Shown here one piece after another: positions 2,728 to 13,806 of a stretch of DNA of 64,000 bases. This stretch comes from Microbacterium sp. CBA3102 (GTDB lineage: Bacteria; Actinomycetota; Actinomycetes; Actinomycetales; Microbacteriaceae), in the NCBI RefSeq assembly GCF_007954505.1, contig NZ_CP042412.1, positions 124,001 through 188,000 on the forward strand, written 5' to 3'. The position numbers were made by a program, and so were the translations under genes. The notes below the pieces were generated by a model. The model had not been told where the DNA came from and searched no databases. It was given only the letters and a program-made list of their open reading frames with translations. Within the stretch, counting starts at the first letter, position 1, and every line of letters begins with the position of its first letter.

Positions 2728-4308
2728 TCAGAGCAGCAGCGGCAGGCCCATCAGCGGCCAGATCCAGAGGGCGAAGACGGCGACGAGCACGAACATCGCG
2801 GGCGCCAGCACCACCGAGAGCCGACGCAGGTCGTGCGGGGTGAAGCCCCCTCTCACGATCTCGGGGTCGGCGAACATCGCGACCGGCTTCGCGGAGCTGG
2901 GAAGTGTGTGGCAGAAGCCGGCCGCGGCGGTGGAGGCGAACGCCGCCGCCATCGGGGAGACGCCGAGCGCGGGAGCGAGAGCGATCACGACCGGGATGAT
3001 GGCGGCCGAGCGCGCCGACCGCGACGGGATCAGCAGGTGCGCTGCGGTCGAGATCGCGATGACCACGAGCACGAAGGCGAAGGCACCGGCAGCGCCGAGA
3101 CCGCGGAGCGGAGCGAGCGCCGATGAGCTCAACCAGGCAGCGGTTCCCGTCGTGGTGAGCGCGGATGCGAGGGCCAGGGTTGCGGCCAGGAACAGCAGCA
3201 GCGACCACGGCACGCGCGTGATCGCGGCGGGGAACGTCACGCAGCCGATGCCCGGCGTCACGGTGGCGACGGCTCCGAGCAGGGCGACCAACGCGGGCGA
3301 GAGGTGGTGCAGCGGCTCGGTGCTCCAGAGCACGATCACCCCGGCGAGAAGCAGCGCGGCCCGACGCTCCGCGGCGCTGAGCGGCCCGGTCACCGCCGTC
3401 GGTGCGGCGCGACCGATCTCGGCGGCGCTCATCCGGAGTGGTTCCCTGCGGTCTTCCCTGCGGGTGAAACGCCAGAGGATGATCTCGCACGCCAGATGCG
3501 ACGAGACCACGGCCAGCGGAAGCCCGAGCAGCAGCCAGGTCAGGAAGGTGAAGCCCTCCTCCCCCGCTGCACGCAGCAACTGGTCGGTCACGATGTGCGC
3601 CCCTGCGCCGAGCAGGGACCCGACGGCGGAGAGCAGGACCACGGTCGGCATCAGGAGGGCGAGAGCGCGGACCACCCGCTCGCGTCCGGGAAGGACGGCC
3701 GAGACCGCACCGTGCACGGGGACCGCCAGCGCGGCGCGCCCGGACGTGGCGGGCACGGCGAATGCAGTGAGCGTCAGGGCGACCGTGGTGAGGTGGAACA
3801 GGCTCCGCGGGCCCCGCGCGAGCCGCAGCAGGTGCGAGGCACCACGCAGGGCGAGACCGGACGAAGACACCGCCGAGGAGATCACGAAGGCGCCGATGAG
3901 CAGCCAGATCGTCTCGTCGCCGAGGGAGGCGAAGAAGTCGCTCGGCGGCAGCACCCCGGTGACGATCAGCGCGATCGCCGCGAGGAAGGCGACGAGCGTG
4001 TCATCGAGGCCGGTCGAGGTCCAGGCCCACACGGCGAGCAGGAAGACGGTGAGCGTCGCCGCGATCGGCAGGGTCGGCGCGCCGCTCCCCGTCGTCCCGG
4101 TCAGCGCGGACAGGGTCATCCCGAGCCCGGCGACGAGCACCAGTCCGAGCATGACCAGGCGGACGGACCGCCCGCGCCGGGCTCGGCGCCGCGCGGACCG
4201 GGCTCCGACGGGCACCGGTCCGTGTCGCGGCGGCATCGTGGCGAAGCGTGTGCGCTCGACGGCCGTCGCGTCCGCGCTCGGGCTCGTGGTCTCGATACGA
4301 TCGCTCAT
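2728..4308 (-). CDS. SLC13/DASS-type anion permease
   Basis: This 526-residue membrane protein has about twelve hydrophobic segments after an Arg-rich cytoplasmic N-terminus (residues 1-48). It resembles divalent anion:Na+ symporters of the SLC13 family, which carry dicarboxylates, tartrate-like acids or sulfate. The start overlaps the stop of the response regulator gene as ATGA, so translation is probably coupled to the two-component system. The gene downstream encodes glycerate kinase, which favours a hydroxycarboxylate substrate. That substrate assignment is inference; the transporter class is fairly clear. Confidence 0.8.
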   Translation of the reverse strand: MSDRIETTSPSADATAVERTRFATMPPRHGPVPVGARSARRRARRGRSVRLVMLGLVLVAGLGMTLSALTGTTGSGAPTLPIAATLTVFLLAVWAWTSTGLDDTLVAFLAAIALIVTGVLPPSDFFASLGDETIWLLIGAFVISSAVSSSGLALRGASHLLRLARGPRSLFHLTTVALTLTAFAVPATSGRAALAVPVHGAVSAVLPGRERVVRALALLMPTVVLLSAVGSLLGAGAHIVTDQLLRAAGEEGFTFLTWLLLGLPLAVVSSHLACEIILWRFTRREDRREPLRMSAAEIGRAAPTAVTGPLSAAERRAALLLAGVIVLWSTEPLHHLSPALVALLGAVATVTPGIGCVTFPAAITRVPWSLLLFLAATLALASALTTTGTAAWLSSSALAPLRGLGAAGAFAFVLVVIAISTAAHLLIPSRSARSAAIIPVVIALAPALGVSPMAAAFASTAAAGFCHTLPSSAKPVAMFADPEIVRGGFTPHDLRRLSVVLAPAMFVLVAVFALWIWPLMGLPLLL

Positions 4309-4964
4309 CGGAATCGATACCCCGCCCCGCGCACGGTCTCGATGCGGTCGACCCCGATCTTGCCGCGCAGCGCCCGTACATAGACGTCGACCACATTGGA
4401 AGCCGGATCGAAGTCCATCCCCCAGACGTGCCCGATCAGTTGATCGCGCGACAGCACTTGTCCGGCGTTCTGCAGGAACACCTCGAGCAGGGCGAACTCC
4501 CGCGAGGTGAGCTCGCGCATGTCCCCCTCGACGGTGACCGTGCGTGCGCGCACATCCACGCGCACCTCGCCGTGGGTGAGCACCGGACCGGCCGCGCGTC
4601 CCTCACCGTCACCGATCCGCAGCCGCACCCGGGCGATGAGTTCGGCGAACTGGAACGGCTTGGTGACGTAATCGTTGGCACCGCTCTCCAGACCCCGCAC
4701 GGTGTCGATGACCGAGTCACGGGCGGTGAGGATGATGACCGGTGTCGCGACGCCTTCGCCGCGCAGGTTGGCGAGCACGTCGAAGCCGTCCATGCCTCCG
4801 AGCCCGATGTCGAGCAGCACCAGGTCGAACATGCCGCTGCGTGCCATCAGCAGTGCGGTGTGCCCGTCGGCGGCCTCGGCGGTCTCGTACCCGGCCGCGC
4901 GCAGCCCGCGGCGGACGAACGAGGTGATGTGCGGGTCGTCTTCGGCGATGAGGATGCTGCGCAT
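4305..4964 (-). CDS. OmpR/PhoB-family response regulator
   Basis: This 219-residue regulator has a receiver domain with acidic residues in AEDD at the N-terminus, phospho-acceptor Asp52 in LVLLDIGL and Lys102 in YVTKPF. A winged-helix DNA-binding domain follows (about residues 125-219) ending RTVRGAGYRFR-like. The start ATG lies one base after the histidine kinase stop, and the stop overlaps the permease start by four bases, so kinase, regulator and permease form one unit. The usual inference is that it controls this transporter in response to its substrate or to envelope conditions. Confidence 0.93.
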   Translation of the reverse strand: MRSILIAEDDPHITSFVRRGLRAAGYETAEAADGHTALLMARSGMFDLVLLDIGLGGMDGFDVLANLRGEGVATPVIILTARDSVIDTVRGLESGANDYVTKPFQFAELIARVRLRIGDGEGRAAGPVLTHGEVRVDVRARTVTVEGDMRELTSREFALLEVFLQNAGQVLSRDQLIGHVWGMDFDPASNVVDVYVRALRGKIGVDRIETVRGAGYRFR

Positions 4965-4965
4965 C

Positions 4966-6540
4966 TCACTCGCTCCTCTCTGTCGCGGCGTCGAACCGCG
5001 TAGGGGTGGGCGCGGGGAGGTCGATACCGAATGTGGCGCCTTCGCCGAGCACGCTGTCGACCCACGCCGAGCCGCCGTGTCCATCGGTGATCGCCCGCAC
5101 GATCGCGAGCCCGAGCCCCGATCCGCGGCGTGCACCGGAGCTATCCCCGCGGGCGAAGCGTTCGAAGATGCGCTCGGCATCGGTCACGGCGACTCCGGGA
5201 CCGGAGTCTCGCACCCAGAGTCGCAGGCGCCGCTCGGAGCCCTCGCCGTCGAAGCGGGAGCCGATGAGGATGCGATCGCCCGGCTCGGTGACCTGCACCG
5301 CGTTCGCCGCGAGCTGGAGCACGGCCTGGGTGACCCGCTGGGGGTCGAGCGGAACCGCTCCCTCCGCCACCTCCATGAGCTGCCACCGGCGGTCACCCAG
5401 GTTCTGCGCTTTGGCCTCGATGTCGAGGGTGAGGGCGGCGATGTCGCAGTCCGCGACGCGCACGAAGTCAGGCTGCTCGGCCCGCGCGAGCACGAGGAGG
5501 TCCGTGACGATGCGGCTCATGCGGTCGAGCTCGTCGCTGACGAGACGCAGGGTCACGGCTCGCTCCTCGGGGTCTTCACTGAGCAGCTCCAGCTGTCCCC
5601 GCACGATCGTGATCGGGGTGCGCAGTTCGTGCCCCGCGTCGTCCACGAACCGTTGCTGCGTGGCGTGCACGGCTTCGAGGCGGTCGAGCATCTGGTTGAA
5701 GGTCGTGGCCACGGCGGCGATGTCATCCGTCCCCTCCACCGGCACCCTGGCCGAGAGGTCGTGCTCCCCGATGTCGCGCGCGACCCGGTACACCTCTCGC
5801 ACGGGTGCCAGGATCTGGCCTGCCACGAGCCAGGCGACGCCGGAGCTGAGCACGATGCCGACCAGCGCGACCCACGCGATCGTCGCGAAGCCGGCATCGA
5901 CCTGCGCCCGCGCGTCCTTCGTGTACTGCATGATCAGGACCGAGCCGTCGCCGTCACCGGTCGTGAAGTCCAGCCGGCCCCAGCGCAGGGGTCCGGCTTC
6001 GCGCTCCTCCTGAGCGCCGGAGGTCTCCGTGGCGCCGAGGAGCTCGGCCACGAGCGCCTCCCCGCCGGGCACGTCCGAGACGGCGGAGGGATCCGTCGTT
6101 GTCGCCGAGCCGTTCGCGACCGCGATCGCCGTGCCGCCGACGGTGGCGACGACGACCTCGTTCTCGTGCGCGGATTGCCGGGCGACGTACTCGGTGACGA
6201 GCTCCTCCGCCGTGGTGTGGCCGCTCGCCGCCGCATCCTCCGCGAAGCGGGCGAACTCGGCGGCTTCCTGCTCGATCTCGGCGTTGGCGGACTGCTCGAC
6301 GCCCGCGATGAAGATGCTGCGGCCGATCATCCCGACGGCGAAGAGGGTCACGGCGGTGCTGAGGATGATCCACAGGGTGATCCGCCAGCGCGCAGGCAGC
6401 GTGCGGCGACGCAGGGTGCGCAGCGGGACACCGGTGGCCGTCGGCCCGTGCGCCACCGCGCGCGGCTCGGGACGAGGCGTGTCCTTCGCGTCGAGCTCCA
6501 GCGGGAGCGTGGGCGCGTCAGTCATCGTCGCCGTCGTCAT
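4966..6540 (-). CDS. Sensor histidine kinase
   Basis: This 524-residue membrane kinase partners the adjacent response regulator. Segments in order are a cytoplasmic N-terminus, TM1 (about 52-73), an extracytoplasmic sensor region (75-215), TM2 (219-241), HAMP, HisKA with phospho-acceptor His304 in DAGHELRTPI, and a HATPase domain with Asn413, DSGPGV and GSGLGLAIV. The assigned ATG at 6540 overlaps the small upstream gene by 23 nt; the in-frame ATG at 6525 would overlap it by 8 nt and is an equally possible start. The ligand is unknown. Confidence 0.93.
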   Translation of the reverse strand: MTTATMTDAPTLPLELDAKDTPRPEPRAVAHGPTATGVPLRTLRRRTLPARWRITLWIILSTAVTLFAVGMIGRSIFIAGVEQSANAEIEQEAAEFARFAEDAAASGHTTAEELVTEYVARQSAHENEVVVATVGGTAIAVANGSATTTDPSAVSDVPGGEALVAELLGATETSGAQEEREAGPLRWGRLDFTTGDGDGSVLIMQYTKDARAQVDAGFATIAWVALVGIVLSSGVAWLVAGQILAPVREVYRVARDIGEHDLSARVPVEGTDDIAAVATTFNQMLDRLEAVHATQQRFVDDAGHELRTPITIVRGQLELLSEDPEERAVTLRLVSDELDRMSRIVTDLLVLARAEQPDFVRVADCDIAALTLDIEAKAQNLGDRRWQLMEVAEGAVPLDPQRVTQAVLQLAANAVQVTEPGDRILIGSRFDGEGSERRLRLWVRDSGPGVAVTDAERIFERFARGDSSGARRGSGLGLAIVRAITDGHGGSAWVDSVLGEGATFGIDLPAPTPTRFDAATERSE

Positions 6541-7699: not shown

Positions 7700-9247
7700 T
7701 CAGACCTCCGAGTCCGCCTTGATCGGCACGGCGATCGACTCGGTGAGCGCCTGCTCGTAGCGACGCTGCCGCCGACGCAACCACAGCCCACCGATGATCA
7801 GCAGAGCGAGCACCCCGTAGGCGATGGCTGCGAACGGCTGCATCACCAACGTGCTCAGGTCTCCCTGGCTCAGCTGCAACGCCTTGCGCAGCTGCTCCTC
7901 GGCCATCGGCCCCAGGATCATCCCGACCACCAGCGGCGCCACCGGGTATCCGTACCTGCGCATGAAGTATCCGAGGATGCCGACGATGAGCAGGATCAGG
8001 ATGTCGATCGGGGAGCTGTGCAGGGCGTACGCCCCGAAGACGGCGAACAGCAGGATCCCCGCGTACAGGTACGGCCGCGGGATCTGCAGCAGCTTCACCC
8101 ACATGCCCACGAGCGGCAGGTTGAGCACGATCAGGATGACGTTGCCGATGTACAGGCTCGCGATCAGCGCCCACACCAGGTTCGACTGGTTCTCGAACAG
8201 CAGGGGTCCCGGTTGGATGCCGTACGACTGGAACGCCGTGAGGATGATCGCCGCGGTCGCGGTCGTCGGCAGCCCGAGTGTGAGCAGAGGCACGAGCACA
8301 CCGGCGGCAGCCGCGTTGTTCGCGGACTCCGGACCGGCGACGCCCTCGATGGCACCTCGTCCGAACTCCTCGCGGTGCTTCGACAGCTTGCGTTCGGTCG
8401 CGTACGAGAGGAACGTCGCGACGTCCGCACCGCCGGCGGGGATCGTGCCGATCGGGAAGCCGATCGCCGTTCCTCGCAGCCACGGCTTCCACGACCGGCG
8501 CCAGTCCGCCTTCGTCATCCACGAGCGCCAGCCCCGGGTGACGGGGATGACGTCGACGCCGCCGTGACGCAGCCGCGCGGCGATGTAGAACGTCTCCCCC
8601 ACGGCGAACAGTCCGACCGCGACCAGCACGATGTCGACGCCGTCGGACAGCGCCGGGATCCCCAGCGTGTAGCGCTGCTGCCCCGAGAGCCAGTCGGTGC
8701 CGACGAGTCCGAGGAACAGCCCGACGCCGAGCGAGAGCATCCCCCGGGAGATCGAGCTGCCGATCAGCGCACCCACCGTGACGAACGCGATGACGATGAG
8801 GGCGACGTAGTCGGCCGGTCCGAGGTTCACCGCGAACTGTGCGAGCAGCGGCGCCAGCAGGGTCAACCCCAACGTGGCGAGCGTGCCGGCGATGAACGAG
8901 CCGATGGCCGCCGTGGCGAGTGCGGCTGCGCCCCGCCCCATCCTGGCCATCCTGTTGCCTTCGATCGCGGTGACGATCGACGCCGACTCCCCCGGGGTGT
9001 TGAGCAGGATGCTCGTCGTCGAGCCGCCGTACATGCCGCCGTAGTAGATGCCCGCGAAGGTGATCAGCGCCGCCGCGGGGTCCAGTGTGTACGTCAGGGG
9101 AAGCAGCAGGGCGACCGTCATGGCGGGGCCGATCCCCGGCAGCACGCCGACCGCGGTACCGACGAAGACGCCGAGGAAAGCGAAGGCGAGGTATTCGGGT
9201 TGCAGCGCCGTCGCGAAGCCTTCGAGGAGCAGCGTCCAGCTGTCCAT
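7700..9247 (-). CDS. tctA: Tripartite tricarboxylate transporter large permease TctA
   Basis: This 515-residue protein is the large membrane subunit (about twelve TM segments) of a TTT-family carboxylate importer that works with a periplasmic-type binding protein and ion gradient rather than ATP. The conserved N-terminal block [20 protein letters not shown] and the segment [20 protein letters not shown] are diagnostic. Its ATG overlaps the tctB stop (TGATG). With tctB and tctC it makes a complete transporter, probably for citrate or a related carboxylate. Confidence 0.95.
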
Positions 9248-9738
9248 CAGAACATCCTTCCGAGCCAGCCGAGGGCAGGACCCCACGGGAGCGAGAGACC
9301 GAGCAGGCCGCCGAAGGCGATCTGGATCACAACCGCGACGCCGATCCCGATCAGGAAGGCCATCCACCAGCGCTTCGCGGCGAGAGACCAGGCGACGCCG
9401 CCGAACAGGAGTGCGGCGGCCGGCGCCCAGCCGAGCGGCTCGATCAGCAGGAGGTGCGCGACCACCAGACCCACCAGCTTGGCGAGCGTCACCCAGTCGG
9501 TCGGCAGTGTGGTGTCGACGTCCTCCGCCTCCTCGGCGCCGCCGCGCTCACCGCGCAGCACGCCGATCAGCACGGCGACTGCAGAGGCGAGCAGGATGAC
9601 GGACACGAAGATCGGGAACACGGTGGGGCCGGCCTTCATACCGACGGGGACATGGATCAGGAAGATGCCGACGACGGCGAAGACGCCGAGCGCGACCATG
9701 ATGCCGGCGAACACGAGTTCGCCGAGGGCGACCCTCAT
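9247..9738 (-). CDS. tctB: Tripartite tricarboxylate transporter small permease TctB
   Basis: This 163-residue protein with four predicted membrane helices is the small, poorly conserved subunit of the TTT transporter. The assignment rests on size, topology and position between tctC and tctA, together with the C-terminal [20 protein letters not shown] end. A hydrophilic acidic loop (about residues 60-85) separates the two halves. It begins one base after the tctC stop and overlaps tctA, so the three genes are almost certainly one transcript. Confidence 0.9.
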
Positions 9739-9739
9739 G

Positions 9740-10759
9740 TCACTGCACCAGCCCGATGTTCTTCAGCGTCGCCGTGACCTCCTCGATGTTGCCCGTGAGG
9801 AACTCGTCGAACTCGTCCCCGACCAGGAAGGCGTCGGTCCAGCCCTTCGTCTCCAGCTGTTCGGTCCACGCCGCCGATTCGTGCAGCTCGGTGATGACGC
9901 GCACGAGCTCGTCCTTGGCGCCGTCGGAGATGCCCCCGGGGGCGATCACACCACGCCAGTTGGTGAGGACGACGTCGTACCCCTCTTCGGTGATGGTCGG
10001 GACGTCGGGGAGCTGTTCGACCGGCTCCTCGCTGGATACGGCGAGCGCCTTGAGCGCACCGCTCTCGACATGCTGGGCGAACTCGCCCACGCCCGAGATG
10101 CCCGCGGACACCTTGCCGCCGATCAGCAGCGGCACCGCCTCACCGCCACCGGAGTTGGGGGTGTAGTTGAGCTTCTCGGCGATCGCCGCTTCGTCGAGGC
10201 CCGCTTCTTCGAGCATGAGCCCGGCGAGGATGTGGTCGGCGCCGCCCGCCGACCCACCGGTGATCGTGACCGACTGCCCGTTGTCGACGATGTCCTCCAC
10301 CAGGTCCTCGAGCGTGTCGTACTTCGAGTCGGCGGGGACCACCACGACGAGGGGCTCATCCGTGAGCCGGGCGATCGGTGTCGTGTCCTCGATGCGCACA
10401 GCCGAGGCGTTCGTCTCGACGGCCCCGACCATCACGAGGCCCATCACCATGAGCGTGTTCGGGTTCTTCTCGTTGGCCAGCTGCGCCAGGCCCACGGTGC
10501 CGCCGGCTCCACCGACGTTCGTGACGGGTGCAGAGCTGACGATGTCGTCCTCCGTGAGCACCTGGGACAGCGCACGACCGGTCTGGTCCCATCCGCCGCC
10601 CGGATCGGCCGGGACCACGATCGAGACGTCGGTGACCGCGGCGGCCTCGGCGTCCCCACCGCCGCCGTCGTCCGTCGGTGCGCTGCCTCCGGCGCAGGAC
10701 GTGAGGGTGAGTGCGGCCACCGCCATGGCGGCCAGGACTCCGATGCGTGCGTGCTTCAT
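9740..10759 (-). CDS. tctC: Tripartite tricarboxylate transporter substrate-binding lipoprotein TctC
   Basis: This 339-residue solute receptor is of the Bug/TctC family. A signal peptide ends at a lipobox TLTSC with acylated Cys22, followed by a Gly/Asp linker; the mature domain begins [18 protein letters not shown], the family's first ligand-loop signature. It captures the carboxylate outside the membrane and delivers it to TctAB. It is the first gene of the operon and faces the divergent membrane regulator, with 175 bp between the two starts containing a 21-bp phased repeat. Confidence 0.93.
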
Positions 10760-10832
10760 GTGCGCTCCTCCTTGAGCGTTCGTGGTGCTGTGCGTCCACA
10801 CTGAGAGCCGGAGAGCCCTCGCTCAAGCTTCG

Positions 10833-10867
10833 GAAACCATTGGTCGGAGTTTCGAAACTATTGGTCG
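10833..10867. promoter_or_regulatory. Two direct operator-like repeats 21 bp apart between tctC and the sensor-regulator
   Basis: GAAACCATTGGTCG at 10833-10846 is repeated as GAAACTATTGGTCG at 10854-10867, with 13 of 14 bases identical. The 21-bp period equals two helical turns, so both sites lie on the same face of the DNA. It is placed between the divergent tctC and regulator starts. This is the arrangement expected for a regulator that binds as a tandem dimer, most likely the divergent gene. Confidence 0.6.
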
Positions 10868-10934
10868 AGGACAGTGCCGTCCCCCGCTCGCACGGTCCGC
10901 CGTCTGGGGCGACAATGGTCAGGTGGCCTCGAAG

Positions 10935-12143
10935 ATGACGCTCCGCATGCAGCTGCTCGTGCTGCAGGCGCTGATCGTGTTCCTGGTGACCCTCGCGACC
11001 GGCATCGTCGCCGGGGCGTTCCAGGAGCAGGCGCTCCGCGAGGCCTACAAGGACCGGATGCAGGCCGTCGCCCAGTCGATCGCCGCCCTCCCCGCCGTCC
11101 TCGCCGCGTTCGACGACGTCGAGCCGTCGACGGCGATCCAGCCCATCGCCGAGGTCATCCGCGAGGCGTCCGATCTCGCCTACGTGGTGGTCGCCAACGA
11201 GGAGGGCATCCGCTACTCCCACCCGAATCCGGACCGCATCGGAGAGACCGTCTCCACCGACCCCTCCATCCCCCTCTCCGGCGAGGTGTACGTCGGCACG
11301 CAGACCGGAACGCTGGGCACGTCCTGGCGAGTCAAGGTGCCCATCCGCGACGACCATGACGAGGTGATCGGCACGGCGTCCGTCGGCATCCTCGAATCCG
11401 AGCTGAATGAGGAGTTCACGTCCAACCTCGCCTGGCTGATCTCCGCCATGCTCGCCGCGGCGGTTCTCGGGGTCTTCGGATCCGCGTGGGTCACCTCGGT
11501 CATCCGACGGCGCATCTACCGCCTCGAACCCCACCAGATCGCCGCACTCGTGAAGAATCAGGAGACGACGCTGCACGGCCTCAGCGAGGGCGTGATCACC
11601 GTCGACGACGAGGGCCGTATCACGCTCGTCAACGACGCAGCGGCGCGGTTCCTCGACCGCGATGCCGCCGAACTCGACGGCTCCCCCGCTGCCGACGTGC
11701 TCGGCGAAGAGCTGACCACGGTGCTGCGCGAGGGCGAGTCCGCCGGACGGCCGGTGATCGTCGGCTCCCACGTGCTGGTCGCCCGCAGTACCGGCAGCGA
11801 GGGCGAGGACGGCGGGATCGGGGCGACGCTGCTGCTGCGCGACCACACCGAGCTCCACGATGTCGTGCGCAGAGTCGAGGCGGCCGATGCGATCATCGCC
11901 TTCCGTCAGCGCTTCGGCATCCCCAAGGGGCTCAGCGCCGAGACGCTCGACCGGGTCTCCGCCGCCCTCGCTGCGCGTCCCGACGCATCCGCCACCGAGA
12001 TCGGCGCGGATCTCGACATCTCGCGGGTGAGCGCACGACGCTACCTCGAGCATCTCGCGAGCTCCGGACGCGCGGTCCGCGCACTCGACTACGCCACGAA
12101 GGGTCGCCCCGGCACGCGCTACCGCATGAACGGGACGATCTGA
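10935..12143 (+). CDS. CitA/DcuS-like membrane sensor fused directly to a CitB/DcuR-type DNA-binding domain (no kinase, no receiver)
   Basis: This is a 402-residue protein. Residues 5-27 are TM1 and 28-165 an extracytoplasmic Cache-type domain with the CitA-like RYSHPNPDRIGE motif. TM2 follows (167-190), then a PAS domain (about 205-305) beginning after EPHQIAALVKNQETTLHGLS. In ordinary CitA kinases a histidine helix and ATPase follow. Here residue 305 leads within about 20 residues into PKGLSAETLDRV and ISRVSARRYLEHL, the helix-turn-helix of CitB-type response regulators. No phospho-His, ATP-binding or receiver motif is present. The ATG has AGGTGG eight bases upstream; GTG 10923 is an alternative. 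It probably regulates the divergent tct operon directly. Confidence 0.85.
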   Translation: MTLRMQLLVLQALIVFLVTLATGIVAGAFQEQALREAYKDRMQAVAQSIAALPAVLAAFDDVEPSTAIQPIAEVIREASDLAYVVVANEEGIRYSHPNPDRIGETVSTDPSIPLSGEVYVGTQTGTLGTSWRVKVPIRDDHDEVIGTASVGILESELNEEFTSNLAWLISAMLAAAVLGVFGSAWVTSVIRRRIYRLEPHQIAALVKNQETTLHGLSEGVITVDDEGRITLVNDAAARFLDRDAAELDGSPAADVLGEELTTVLREGESAGRPVIVGSHVLVARSTGSEGEDGGIGATLLLRDHTELHDVVRRVEAADAIIAFRQRFGIPKGLSAETLDRVSAALAARPDASATEIGADLDISRVSARRYLEHLASSGRAVRALDYATKGRPGTRYRMNGTI

Positions 12144-12231: not shown

Positions 12232-13806
12232 ATGGTTCGCAGCACCTACCCCGATGTGGAGATCCCCGAGGTCTCCATCCACGAATTCCTCTTCGGAGGT
12301 CTCGGCGAGGAGGAGCTCGACACGATCGCTCTCGTCGACGGAGTGAGCGGGGCGACCACCCCCTACCGACAGCTCGTAGGCCAGATCGATCTCTTCGCCG
12401 GTGCCCTCGCCGCCCGCGGAGTCGGAGTCGGGACCACGATCGGAGTCCTCTGCCCCAACGTCCCCGCGTTCGCCACGGTGTTCCACGGCATCCTCCGCGC
12501 CGGAGCGACCGCGACGACGATCAACTCCCTCTACACCGCAGAGGAGATCGCGAATCAGCTCACCGACGCCGGAGCGACGTGGCTCGTGACGGTGTCTCCG
12601 CTGCTGCCCGGTGCCTCTGCTGCCGCGGAGAAGCTCGGTTTCGCGGCCGACCACGTCATCGTGCTCGACGGCGCCGAGGGGCACCCGTCGCTTCCGGCGC
12701 TCCTGGGCGAAGGCCACCCGGCGCCGGACGTGTCGTTCGACCCGGCGACACACCTGGCCGTGCTGCCGTACTCCTCCGGCACGACCGGCCGCCCGAAGGG
12801 TGTCATGCTCACCCACCGCAACCTCGTCGCCAACGTGTCGCAATGCCGTCCGGTCCTGGGCGTCGAGGCGAGCGATCGCGTGCTGGCCGTGCTCCCCTTC
12901 TTCCACATCTACGGGATGACGGTGCTGCTCAACTTCGCGCTACGGCAGCGCGCGGGCCTCGTCACGATGCCCAGGTTCGACCTGCCGGAGTTCCTCCGCA
13001 TCATCGCGGAACACCGGACGACCTGGGTGTTCGTCGCTCCCCCGATCGCGGTCGCGCTGGCGAAGCATCCGATCGTCGACCAGTACGACCTCTCCGCCGT
13101 GAAGGTGATCTTCTCCGGAGCCGCCCCGCTCGACGGGGCCCTGGCCTCGGCGGTGGCGAACCGGCTCGGCTGCACCGTCACGCAGGGCTACGGCATGACC
13201 GAGACGAGTCCGGCGGTGAACCTCATCTCCGAGACCCGTGACGACATCGATCGTTCCGCCATCGGCCCGCTCGTGCCCAACACCGAAGCACGCCTGGTCG
13301 ATCCGGACTCCGGCGAGGACGTGGCCGTACCGGCCGAGGGTGCCAGCGAGCCGGGTGAGCTGTGGGTGCGCGGACCGCAGGTGATGGTCGGCTACCTCAA
13401 CCGCCCCGACGCCACGGCCGAGATGCTCGACGCCGAGGGCTGGCTGCACACCGGAGACGTCGCGACCGTCACCCAGGACGGCATCTACCGCATCGTCGAC
13501 CGGCTCAAGGAACTCATCAAATACAAGGGCTACCAGGTCGCCCCGGCCGTCCTCGAGGCGGTGCTGCTCGAGCATCCCGCCATCGCCGATGCTGCTGTCA
13601 TCGGCGCGCTCGACGCCGACGGTCAGGAGGTCCCGAAGGCCTTCGTGGTTCGACAGCCGGACGCCGACCTCGATGCGGAGGCCGTGATGGCGCATGTCGC
13701 CGCCCACGTCGCGCCGCACGAGAAGGTGCGACAGGTCGAGTTCATCGAGGTGATCCCGAAGTCGAGCTCCGGAAAGATCCTCCGCAAGGATCTGCGTGCA
13801 CGCTGA
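12232..13806 (+). CDS. Acyl/aryl-CoA ligase, AMP-binding (4-coumarate--CoA ligase-like)
   Basis: This 524-residue ANL-superfamily enzyme activates a carboxylic acid as acyl-AMP and transfers it to CoA. Visible motifs are the P-loop YSSGTTGRPKGVML, the A5 motif QGYGMTETSP, the hinge region LKELIKYKGYQVAP and the C-terminal catalytic lysine in PKSSSGKILRKDL. The overall pattern is closest to 4-coumarate/medium-chain ligases. The ATG at 12232 follows GGAG at good spacing. It lies 88 bp after the membrane regulator on the same strand, opposite a carboxylate importer, so it may activate the imported acid. The substrate is unknown. Confidence 0.9.
   Translation: MVRSTYPDVEIPEVSIHEFLFGGLGEEELDTIALVDGVSGATTPYRQLVGQIDLFAGALAARGVGVGTTIGVLCPNVPAFATVFHGILRAGATATTINSLYTAEEIANQLTDAGATWLVTVSPLLPGASAAAEKLGFAADHVIVLDGAEGHPSLPALLGEGHPAPDVSFDPATHLAVLPYSSGTTGRPKGVMLTHRNLVANVSQCRPVLGVEASDRVLAVLPFFHIYGMTVLLNFALRQRAGLVTMPRFDLPEFLRIIAEHRTTWVFVAPPIAVALAKHPIVDQYDLSAVKVIFSGAAPLDGALASAVANRLGCTVTQGYGMTETSPAVNLISETRDDIDRSAIGPLVPNTEARLVDPDSGEDVAVPAEGASEPGELWVRGPQVMVGYLNRPDATAEMLDAEGWLHTGDVATVTQDGIYRIVDRLKELIKYKGYQVAPAVLEAVLLEHPAIADAAVIGALDADGQEVPKAFVVRQPDADLDAEAVMAHVAAHVAPHEKVRQVEFIEVIPKSSSGKILRKDLRAR

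Follow-up and report, generated by a model that had tools for sequence, protein, structure and literature searches.

A membrane-bound CitA/CitB fusion divergent from tctCBA in Microbacterium, likely a one-component regulator

One reading frame in the genome of Microbacterium sp. CBA3102 joins a membrane sensor of the CitA type to a DNA-binding domain of the CitB type. The question raised by this gene is whether it is an accident of one strain or a regulator that acts on DNA from the membrane. It lies in the window, i.e., the whole stretch of 64,000 nucleotides that was analysed (positions 124,001 to 188,000 of contig NZ_CP042412.1). The earlier note on this DNA had offered two explanations, a deletion that fused two genes and a phosphorylation-free one-component system. 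The two are compatible, and the analysis supports both: a single clade of fused sequences, together with kinase/regulator pairs at the same locus in relatives, points to an in-frame deletion that happened once, and the product appears to be under purifying selection.

Domain make-up of the fused protein and position of the join

The frame from 10935 to 12143 on the forward strand holds 402 codons without a stop and is continuous across the join, as the earlier note had read it. It encodes, in this order, a transmembrane (TM) helix, an sCache_3_2 domain, a second TM helix, a PAS domain, a helix and a helix-turn-helix (HTH) of the CitB/DcuR type (Table 1). This architecture, with kinase and receiver absent, had been proposed before and was confirmed by Pfam, NCBIfam, BLAST and searches with kinase-core and receiver queries. 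Pfam recognises the sCache_3_2 domain (E 1.8e-33) and the PAS domain, as well as a weak HTH_64 (“DpiA-like”) match at residues 355-394 that is under the family cut-off (E 0.0063). In NCBIfam, a DcuS/MalK kinase model covers residues 1-315 (E 3e-54) and a DcuR regulator model residues 327-399 (E 8e-9); both score under their whole-protein cut-offs, which is expected, because each covers half a protein. The sensor half finds kinases by BLAST, with 65% identity up to residue 322 in the kinase-type locus L054, and the HTH half (about residues 315-398) finds the regulators just downstream in related loci, with 48-55% identity at five loci. Hydrophobic windows span residues 1-31 and 161-190, and the PAS domain resembles those of DcuS (PDB 2w0n) and CitA (5fq1, 8bjp). 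From CitA/DcuS kinases, the protein thus retains the sCache_3 domain between two TM helices and the PAS domain that follows; the phospho-accepting histidine helix (HEF.N) and the HATPase core are absent according to Pfam, NCBIfam, alignment and core queries. From CitB/DcuR regulators, it retains the C-terminal HTH, and the N-terminal receiver with its phospho-aspartate is absent. The AF2 model of the whole protein (pLDDT 77, pTM 0.40) returned Cache and PAS matches in Foldseek and no useful HTH match among the 50 matches listed.

Table 1. Features of the fused gene and its surroundings, in window coordinates
Feature	Residues	Position	Strand	Basis or remark
Fused sensor-regulator gene		10923..12143	+	GTG 10923 the likelier start; ATG 10935 the start used for the 402-aa P0001
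TM helix 1	~7-29	10953..11021	+	Hydropathy; AF2 model helix 3-51
Extracytoplasmic sCache_3_2 with R93, H96, R132, K134	31-163	11025..11423	+	Pfam, Foldseek, residue alignment
TM helix 2	~164-190	11424..11504	+	Hydropathy; AF2 model
Cytoplasmic PAS domain	~196-303 (Pfam core 211-274)	11520..11843	+	Pfam; PDB PAS matches
Linker helix with join	304-328	11844..11918	+	Alignment, dN/dS, AF2 model
CitB/DcuR-type HTH	329-398	11919..12128	+	Pfam, NCBIfam, BLAST
tctC, substrate-binding protein of tripartite tricarboxylate transporter, probable target		9740..10759	-	Presumed name
tctB		9247..9738	-	Presumed name
tctA		7700..9247	-	Presumed name
Putative operator repeat, tctC-proximal		10829..10846	+	TTCGGAAACCATTGGTCG
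Putative operator repeat, sensor-proximal		10850..10867	+	TTTCGAAACTATTGGTCG; 21 bp from tctC-proximal copy
Proposed tctC promoter		10798..10826	-	-10 at 10798-10803, 17 bp, -35 at 10821-10826; adjoins operator

The gene probably starts slightly further upstream. Its beginning reads GTG GCC TCG AAG ATG, and the GTG, four codons 5' of the ATG, stands 6 nt after a GACAAT hexamer. This arrangement recurs in many fused loci, and an ANAATG hexamer region with a GTG or ATG a few codons upstream of the frame recurs in related loci. By this comparison, GTG 10923 is probably the true, leaderless start.

The join had been placed around 11865-11930 and was mapped, within this range and with an uncertainty of a few residues, to about residue 317/318, i.e., window position 11885/11886. 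Near this point, related kinases read ..RDHTELHxxLRRxDGAQSLxxGLRxQAHEF.. and related regulators ..(V/I)DA(V/M)(L/M)xPxxxxxLPKGLS.., both with some variation. The kinase sequence ..TELHxxLRRxDGA, broken off before QSL.., meets the regulator sequence DA(M/V)(M/L)..PKGLS, broken off after (I/V), in the form of ..RRVEAA followed directly by DAIIAFRQRFGIPKGLS, and the fusion itself reads ..RDHTELHDVVRRVEAADAIIAFRQRFGIPKGLS.. across the join. The spacing from DA to PKG is that of several related regulators; the position of the join follows from this meeting of kinase and regulator motifs at a regulator-like spacing. As read from the alignment, the lost stretch starts 5' of the phospho-accepting histidine and reaches into the linker that follows the receiver.

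The new joint is the best preserved part of the protein. Residues 304-328 are near-invariant in 16 aligned sequences, and in 26 fused genes (325 pairs, medians) their dN/dS of 0.057 marks them as the most constrained stretch, compared with 0.19 overall, 0.24 for residues 1-30, 0.195 for the Cache domain, 0.14 for TM helix 2, 0.22 for the PAS domain and 0.144 for the HTH. These ratios indicate that the fused product has been kept under purifying selection since the deletion, and the strong constraint on the joint fits a signalling helix. In the AF2 model, residues 305-327 form one helix (pLDDT 56-72), and residues 328-334, between this helix and the HTH, form a loop; given the modest confidence, the model makes no firm case for a continuous signalling helix or a dimer.

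Distribution and origin within the genus

A survey of 366 Microbacterium genomes at a threshold of E 1e-60 gave one match in each of 98 genomes: 54 full-length fusions, two damaged fusions and 42 sensor matches that end at about residue 320, at the start of the kinase core. The loci that were read among these 42 genomes hold kinases with a regulator downstream. Neither the fused nor the kinase form is found in the remaining 268 genomes at this threshold, and the system is therefore dispensable. The 54 full-length frames share 70-100% identity, and their named carriers include M. oxydans, M. maritypicum, M. algeriense, M. hydrocarbonoxydans and M. azadirachtae. One of the damaged copies (G582, L105) has a frame change near residue 116, possibly a sequencing error, and keeps the doubled operator described below; in the other (G456, L106), nothing was found before about residue 190.

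Searches beyond the genus, all within Actinomycetota and, like the genus survey, scored on the best 5-12 candidates per genome, returned the fusion in two genomes among the top-scoring matches listed for the family (299 genomes) and in three genomes of the order sample (396 genomes), all of them Microbacterium, and at its own locus alone in the phylum sample (396 genomes). No fusion outside the genus was found in the order and phylum samples or among the family matches listed. A query with the linker gave the same picture: three genus members of the order sample match from position 1-2, and the sole phylum match from the start of the linker is the gene's own locus. Some rows of other genera in the order sample start at positions 6-19, with far weaker scores; 12 places were fetched. 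In the control loci, all 54 CitB-type HTH frames (47 distinct, 35 plus 12) carry a receiver and none carries the Cache/PAS part. A plasmid collection yielded 167 matching records, and the 20 of them that were listed all stop at or before residue 327. Independent fusions elsewhere were considered and rejected, with no case among the 54 control frames, the plasmid matches listed or the order and phylum samples.

An artefact of assembly or of one strain is ruled out by the same continuous frame in dozens of separately sequenced genomes, which provide the reading across the join in independent sequence that the earlier note had called for. That note had also taken conservation in several genera as the mark of a real class and a unique case as the mark of a strain deletion. 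The class stands, with 54 of 366 genomes carrying it in full length; the several genera do not. Homologues that were all kinase/regulator pairs had been named as the finding that would speak against a fused class, and the 54 full-length fusions are no such pairs. The fusion is a conserved class within one genus and no strain accident.

The missing parts do not stand nearby as separate genes in the loci searched. With kinase cores and receivers cut from L051 and L054 as queries, no receiver was found beside the fused gene in 30 fused loci, and kinase-core matches appeared in 11 of the 30, solely at the far edge, about 6 kb off and at 31-36% identity. A free-standing kinase core beside the fused gene was rejected, as these weak edge matches fall about where the window has an unrelated kinase gene, part of an OmpR-type pair. 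This pair lies at 4305-6540 on the reverse strand, some 4.4 kb away from the fused gene, and consists of an OmpR-type regulator and a HAMP/HisKA-type kinase (both named by reading the sequence) whose core has a weak likeness to CitA. Outside the window, the genome also encodes a CitA/CitB-type pair of the ordinary kind, which has both core and receiver (G000:C1:2591300-2593450, L149); the gene divergent from it resembles, on reading, one for a DctA-type dicarboxylate symporter.

The three genes on the reverse strand next to the fused gene are, as we take it from their family, tctC, tctB and tctA. They are divergent from the fused gene in all 29 continuous fused loci (L023-L050, L052), a count that leaves out a broken metagenome copy (L053). 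The same divergent arrangement, with a separate citB downstream, is present in 5/5 of the closest kinase-type loci whose flanks are long enough to show it (L051, L054-L057), and tctC is divergent in the shorter flanks of L011 and L012. No tctC match was found in the short flanks of the distant CitA-type matches L013-L020 (29-34% identity) or of the genome's own second pair, and the claim of synteny is therefore limited to close relatives. A quick IQ-TREE search on residues 1-317 of 59 distinct rows placed the 40 fused ones on one side of a branch with an SH-aLRT of 100, nested in the kinases and beside L054 and L091. Since the fused rows form one clade among kinases, the fusion arose once. On its other side, the fused gene is followed in 21 of 29 fused loci by a gene that reads like an AMP-forming acyl-CoA ligase (12232-13806 on the forward strand in the window); it is possible that this gene is co-transcribed with the fused gene.

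A doubled putative operator upstream of tctC

That tctC would be the target had seemed obvious to the earlier note from the divergent arrangement, and this view is now backed by a conserved putative operator that the note did not contain. Alignment of the regions upstream of fused genes revealed two direct-repeat copies of TTNCGNAACYATTGGTCG, 20-21 bp apart, between the fused gene and tctC. A pattern made from both repeats, with at most three mismatches, matches the window twice against 0.10 expected; it was built from these very sites and is no independent test. In the 3.9-Mb genome, just these two sites match TTNCGNAACNATTGGTCG with 0-1 mismatches, and the four further sites at two mismatches are background (five hits in the control).

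A copy was counted where at least 15 of 18 positions agree, with a partner at a spacing of 18-23 bp. By this count, both copies, 20 or 21 bp apart, are present in 54 of the 56 fused loci, which hold 40 distinct sensor sequences; the exceptions, L043 and L108, come from one species, have identical sensor sequences and keep a single copy at the tctC-proximal position. None of the 18 kinase-type loci has two copies: 15 have one, and L051, L056 and L101 have none that reaches 15/18. In L093 and L102, a second half-site scores 14/18, just under the threshold. Read by eye, the kinase-type loci fall into two layouts, one site at the tctC-proximal position (L054, L091, L096, L097, L099), or a strong sensor-proximal site with a decayed tctC-proximal one (L055, L092-L095, L098, L104). 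To say that they have half the operator is too simple, as position and decay of the copies vary among loci, and either layout may be the ancestral state of the operator. The more distant kinase-type loci L051, L057 and L102 have, again by eye, arrays of GGTCGTNN-like units every 9-10 bp or so upstream of the sensor in place of the 18-bp site; such arrays are perhaps an older form of the operator.

Once each, and with no control hit, 49 of the 366 genus genomes contain the exact doubled pattern, ATTGGTC N9-10 AANNATTGGTC. These genomes are 48 of the 54 with full-length fusions, leaving six without the exact pattern, and the one with the frameshifted fusion, G582; no kinase-type genome (of 42) and no other genome among the 366 has the pattern. 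Because fusion and doubling share one clade, the link between them amounts to one evolutionary event.

The repeats adjoin a proposed tctC promoter. Of 36 different stretches upstream of fused genes, 27 have a -10-like hexamer 31 bp away from the operator repeat; the other nine do not have it at this distance (one has it at 32 bp), and in the window the proposed -10, CAGTGT, is weak. Seven kinase-type stretches have the hexamer at 30-31 bp as well, measured to the expected position of the tctC-proximal copy. With the -35 placed as in Table 1, the repeats would centre near -46 and -67, which is typical of an activator. Further downstream, a 5-bp hairpin, CGCUC/GAGCG (window 10763-10778, reverse strand), carries the tctC ribosome site AAGGAG in its loop; the hairpin sequence is nearly invariant in aligned fused loci and reads CACTC/GAGTG in some kinase-type loci; the hairpin is not clearly better than shuffled sequences (z -1.12).

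Proposed mechanism, rival explanations and known systems

Several observations bear on what the protein might sense. Foldseek matches its Cache domain to the citrate-bound form of CitA (8bgb). R93 aligns with the arginine of Geobacillus CitA whose R93A mutant structure (8biy) is titled citrate-free, and R132 and K134 match the R.K of CitA, as opposed to the R.F of DcuS, K134 being the CitA lysine where DcuS has F. Together with H96, these residues are identical in all 27 aligned sensors (25 fused, 2 kinases), and those other than R93 presumably take part in binding citrate too. In Corynebacterium glutamicum, CitAB is described to turn on tctCBA in response to citrate, and CitB to bind the tctCBA promoter (PMC3353115). 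The fused protein is therefore predicted to sense, probably, a citrate-like acid outside the cell.

Comparison of the loci brings out the architecture, its single origin, the selection on the join, the synteny and the operator with its doubling. Against this background, we consider it likely that the fused protein is a phosphorylation-free, membrane-bound one-component regulator that arose by collapse of a CitA/CitB system, and most likely a citrate-responsive activator of tctCBA. The ancestor would have been a citA-citB pair divergent from tctCBA. A single in-frame deletion would have taken the dimerisation helix with its histidine, the ATPase domain, the boundary between the genes and the receiver in its entirety, so that the helix at the exit of the CitA PAS domain would now run into the linker preceding the CitB HTH. 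A dimeric sensor might then bind citrate or a similar tri- or dicarboxylate at the Cache domain outside the cell, whereupon TM helix 2 and the PAS domain would turn or shift the joined helix and reposition two HTH domains, presumably with no phosphate input in vivo. These domains could bind the two tandem half-sites, 21 bp or two helical turns apart and just upstream of the tctC -35, from where the protein would recruit RNA polymerase to tctCBA and perhaps act on its own promoter, too. One of the points against this explanation is that a C2 dimer has no obvious fit to direct repeats.

A more specific version, which we put forward tentatively, since it might equally well or somewhat more easily turn out to be wrong, is that a one-step collapse was accompanied by rebuilding of the operator to two near-consensus half-sites, so that cooperativity encoded in the DNA replaced dimerisation driven by phosphorylation. 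The prior state would have been one strong site, or one strong and one decayed site. As fusion and doubling coincide in a single clade, the idea that the operator compensates for the receiver rests on one event plus geometry.

The direction of control is predicted from C. glutamicum CitAB, and the reverse direction is unlikely. As a membrane-bound repressor, the unphosphorylated HTH would always sit on the operator and block or dampen tctCBA until ligand releases it. Constitutive tight binding of this kind would be consistent with the near-consensus state of both copies in the fused clade, and Rsp, a PilS/PilR chimera of gonococci, is reported to act as a repressor of pilA (PMC10269533). However, the operator lies upstream of the proposed -35 and -10 rather than over them, with an activator-like spacing that is common to several kinase-type loci, and the corynebacterial relative CitAB is reported as an activator (PMC3353115).

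Regulated proteolysis is improbable as the mode of action. Here, the sensor would be a tether, and ligand-triggered cleavage after the PAS domain would free a soluble, DNA-binding HTH. A membrane anchor does hinder the search for DNA, and the modelled loop at residues 328-334 could offer a place for cleavage; yet the joined helix, as the most constrained part, is more in keeping with a signalling helix than with a tail for cleavage, just one operator has to be found in the genome, and CadC is reported to need only minutes to locate its site while in the membrane (PMC7888679). That the fusion is a non-functional relic of a two-component system being lost is very hard to maintain: the two frameshifted or truncated copies among 56 and the absence of the locus from 268 of 366 genus members at E 1e-60 would agree with it, but they are set against 54 full-length frames, the low dN/dS (0.19, and 0.057 in the new linker) and an operator both kept and doubled.

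The proposed one-component regulator can be compared with several known systems. CitA/CitB systems (the DcuS/DcuR or citrate family, with C. glutamicum CitAB and the citA-citB pairs divergent from tctCBA in related Microbacteriaceae as examples) have passed on the sensor half, the HTH half, the operator motif and the place; the fusion differs from them in its lack of the phospho-accepting histidine helix, ATPase and receiver and in being one polypeptide instead of two. Regulators of the ToxR and CadC types have an N-terminal DNA-binding domain and a single TM helix, unlike the fusion, which is TM-Cache-TM-PAS-HTH with a traceable kinase ancestry. With these and other transmembrane transcription regulators (TTRs; TcpP, BcrR, NanR), the fusion shares a predicted TM region and a DNA-binding domain in one protein. 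TTRs control transcription from the membrane, and the fusion may do so, too, perhaps in response to an extracellular signal; they are described as common, and an origin from two-component systems has been suggested in print, with Rsp of Neisseria gonorrhoeae as an example (PMC10269533). Rsp joins the PilS membrane receptor to the PilR DNA-binding domain, and the title of its original report, as given in the reference list of the same paper, calls it remnants of a system (PMC10269533). The fusion, too, consists of a kinase receptor and the DNA-binding domain of the cognate regulator, with kinase core and receiver lost; the likeness is one of analogy, as the families differ (Cache/PAS/CitB, not PilS/PilR) and Rsp is no homologue. 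Fusing a kinase receptor to a regulator's DNA-binding domain thus has a precedent, and no account of a CitA/CitB version was found among the open-licence PMC papers listed. Its unusual point is that ancestor-like and fused loci can be compared directly together with their operators; we know of no operator evolution for Rsp. MaeK/MaeR of Lactobacillales, also of the citrate family, are described to depart from the normal phosphorelay and to use a regulator that binds tandem direct repeats, although they are still two proteins and the receiver needs its aspartate (PMC5457438). As to the architecture class itself, a transcription-factor output is listed for 3 of 2,499 sCache_3_2 proteins (PMC4822843, Table 1).

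For Microbacterium, the fusion would provide a very small sensor, one gene and one operator, probably for a citrate-like acid. Two questions follow: can a sensor of the citrate family act on an HTH directly, with no phosphate relay in between, and does a doubled operator make up for the lost receiver? Ancestor-like and fused states stand at the same locus, the join is placed to within a few residues and the change of the operator can be seen, and because kinase-type and fused loci occur side by side in one genus, each evolutionary step is testable. If the operator was indeed rebuilt, nature would have supplied at this locus a before-and-after experiment on the origin of membrane transcription regulators from two-component systems.
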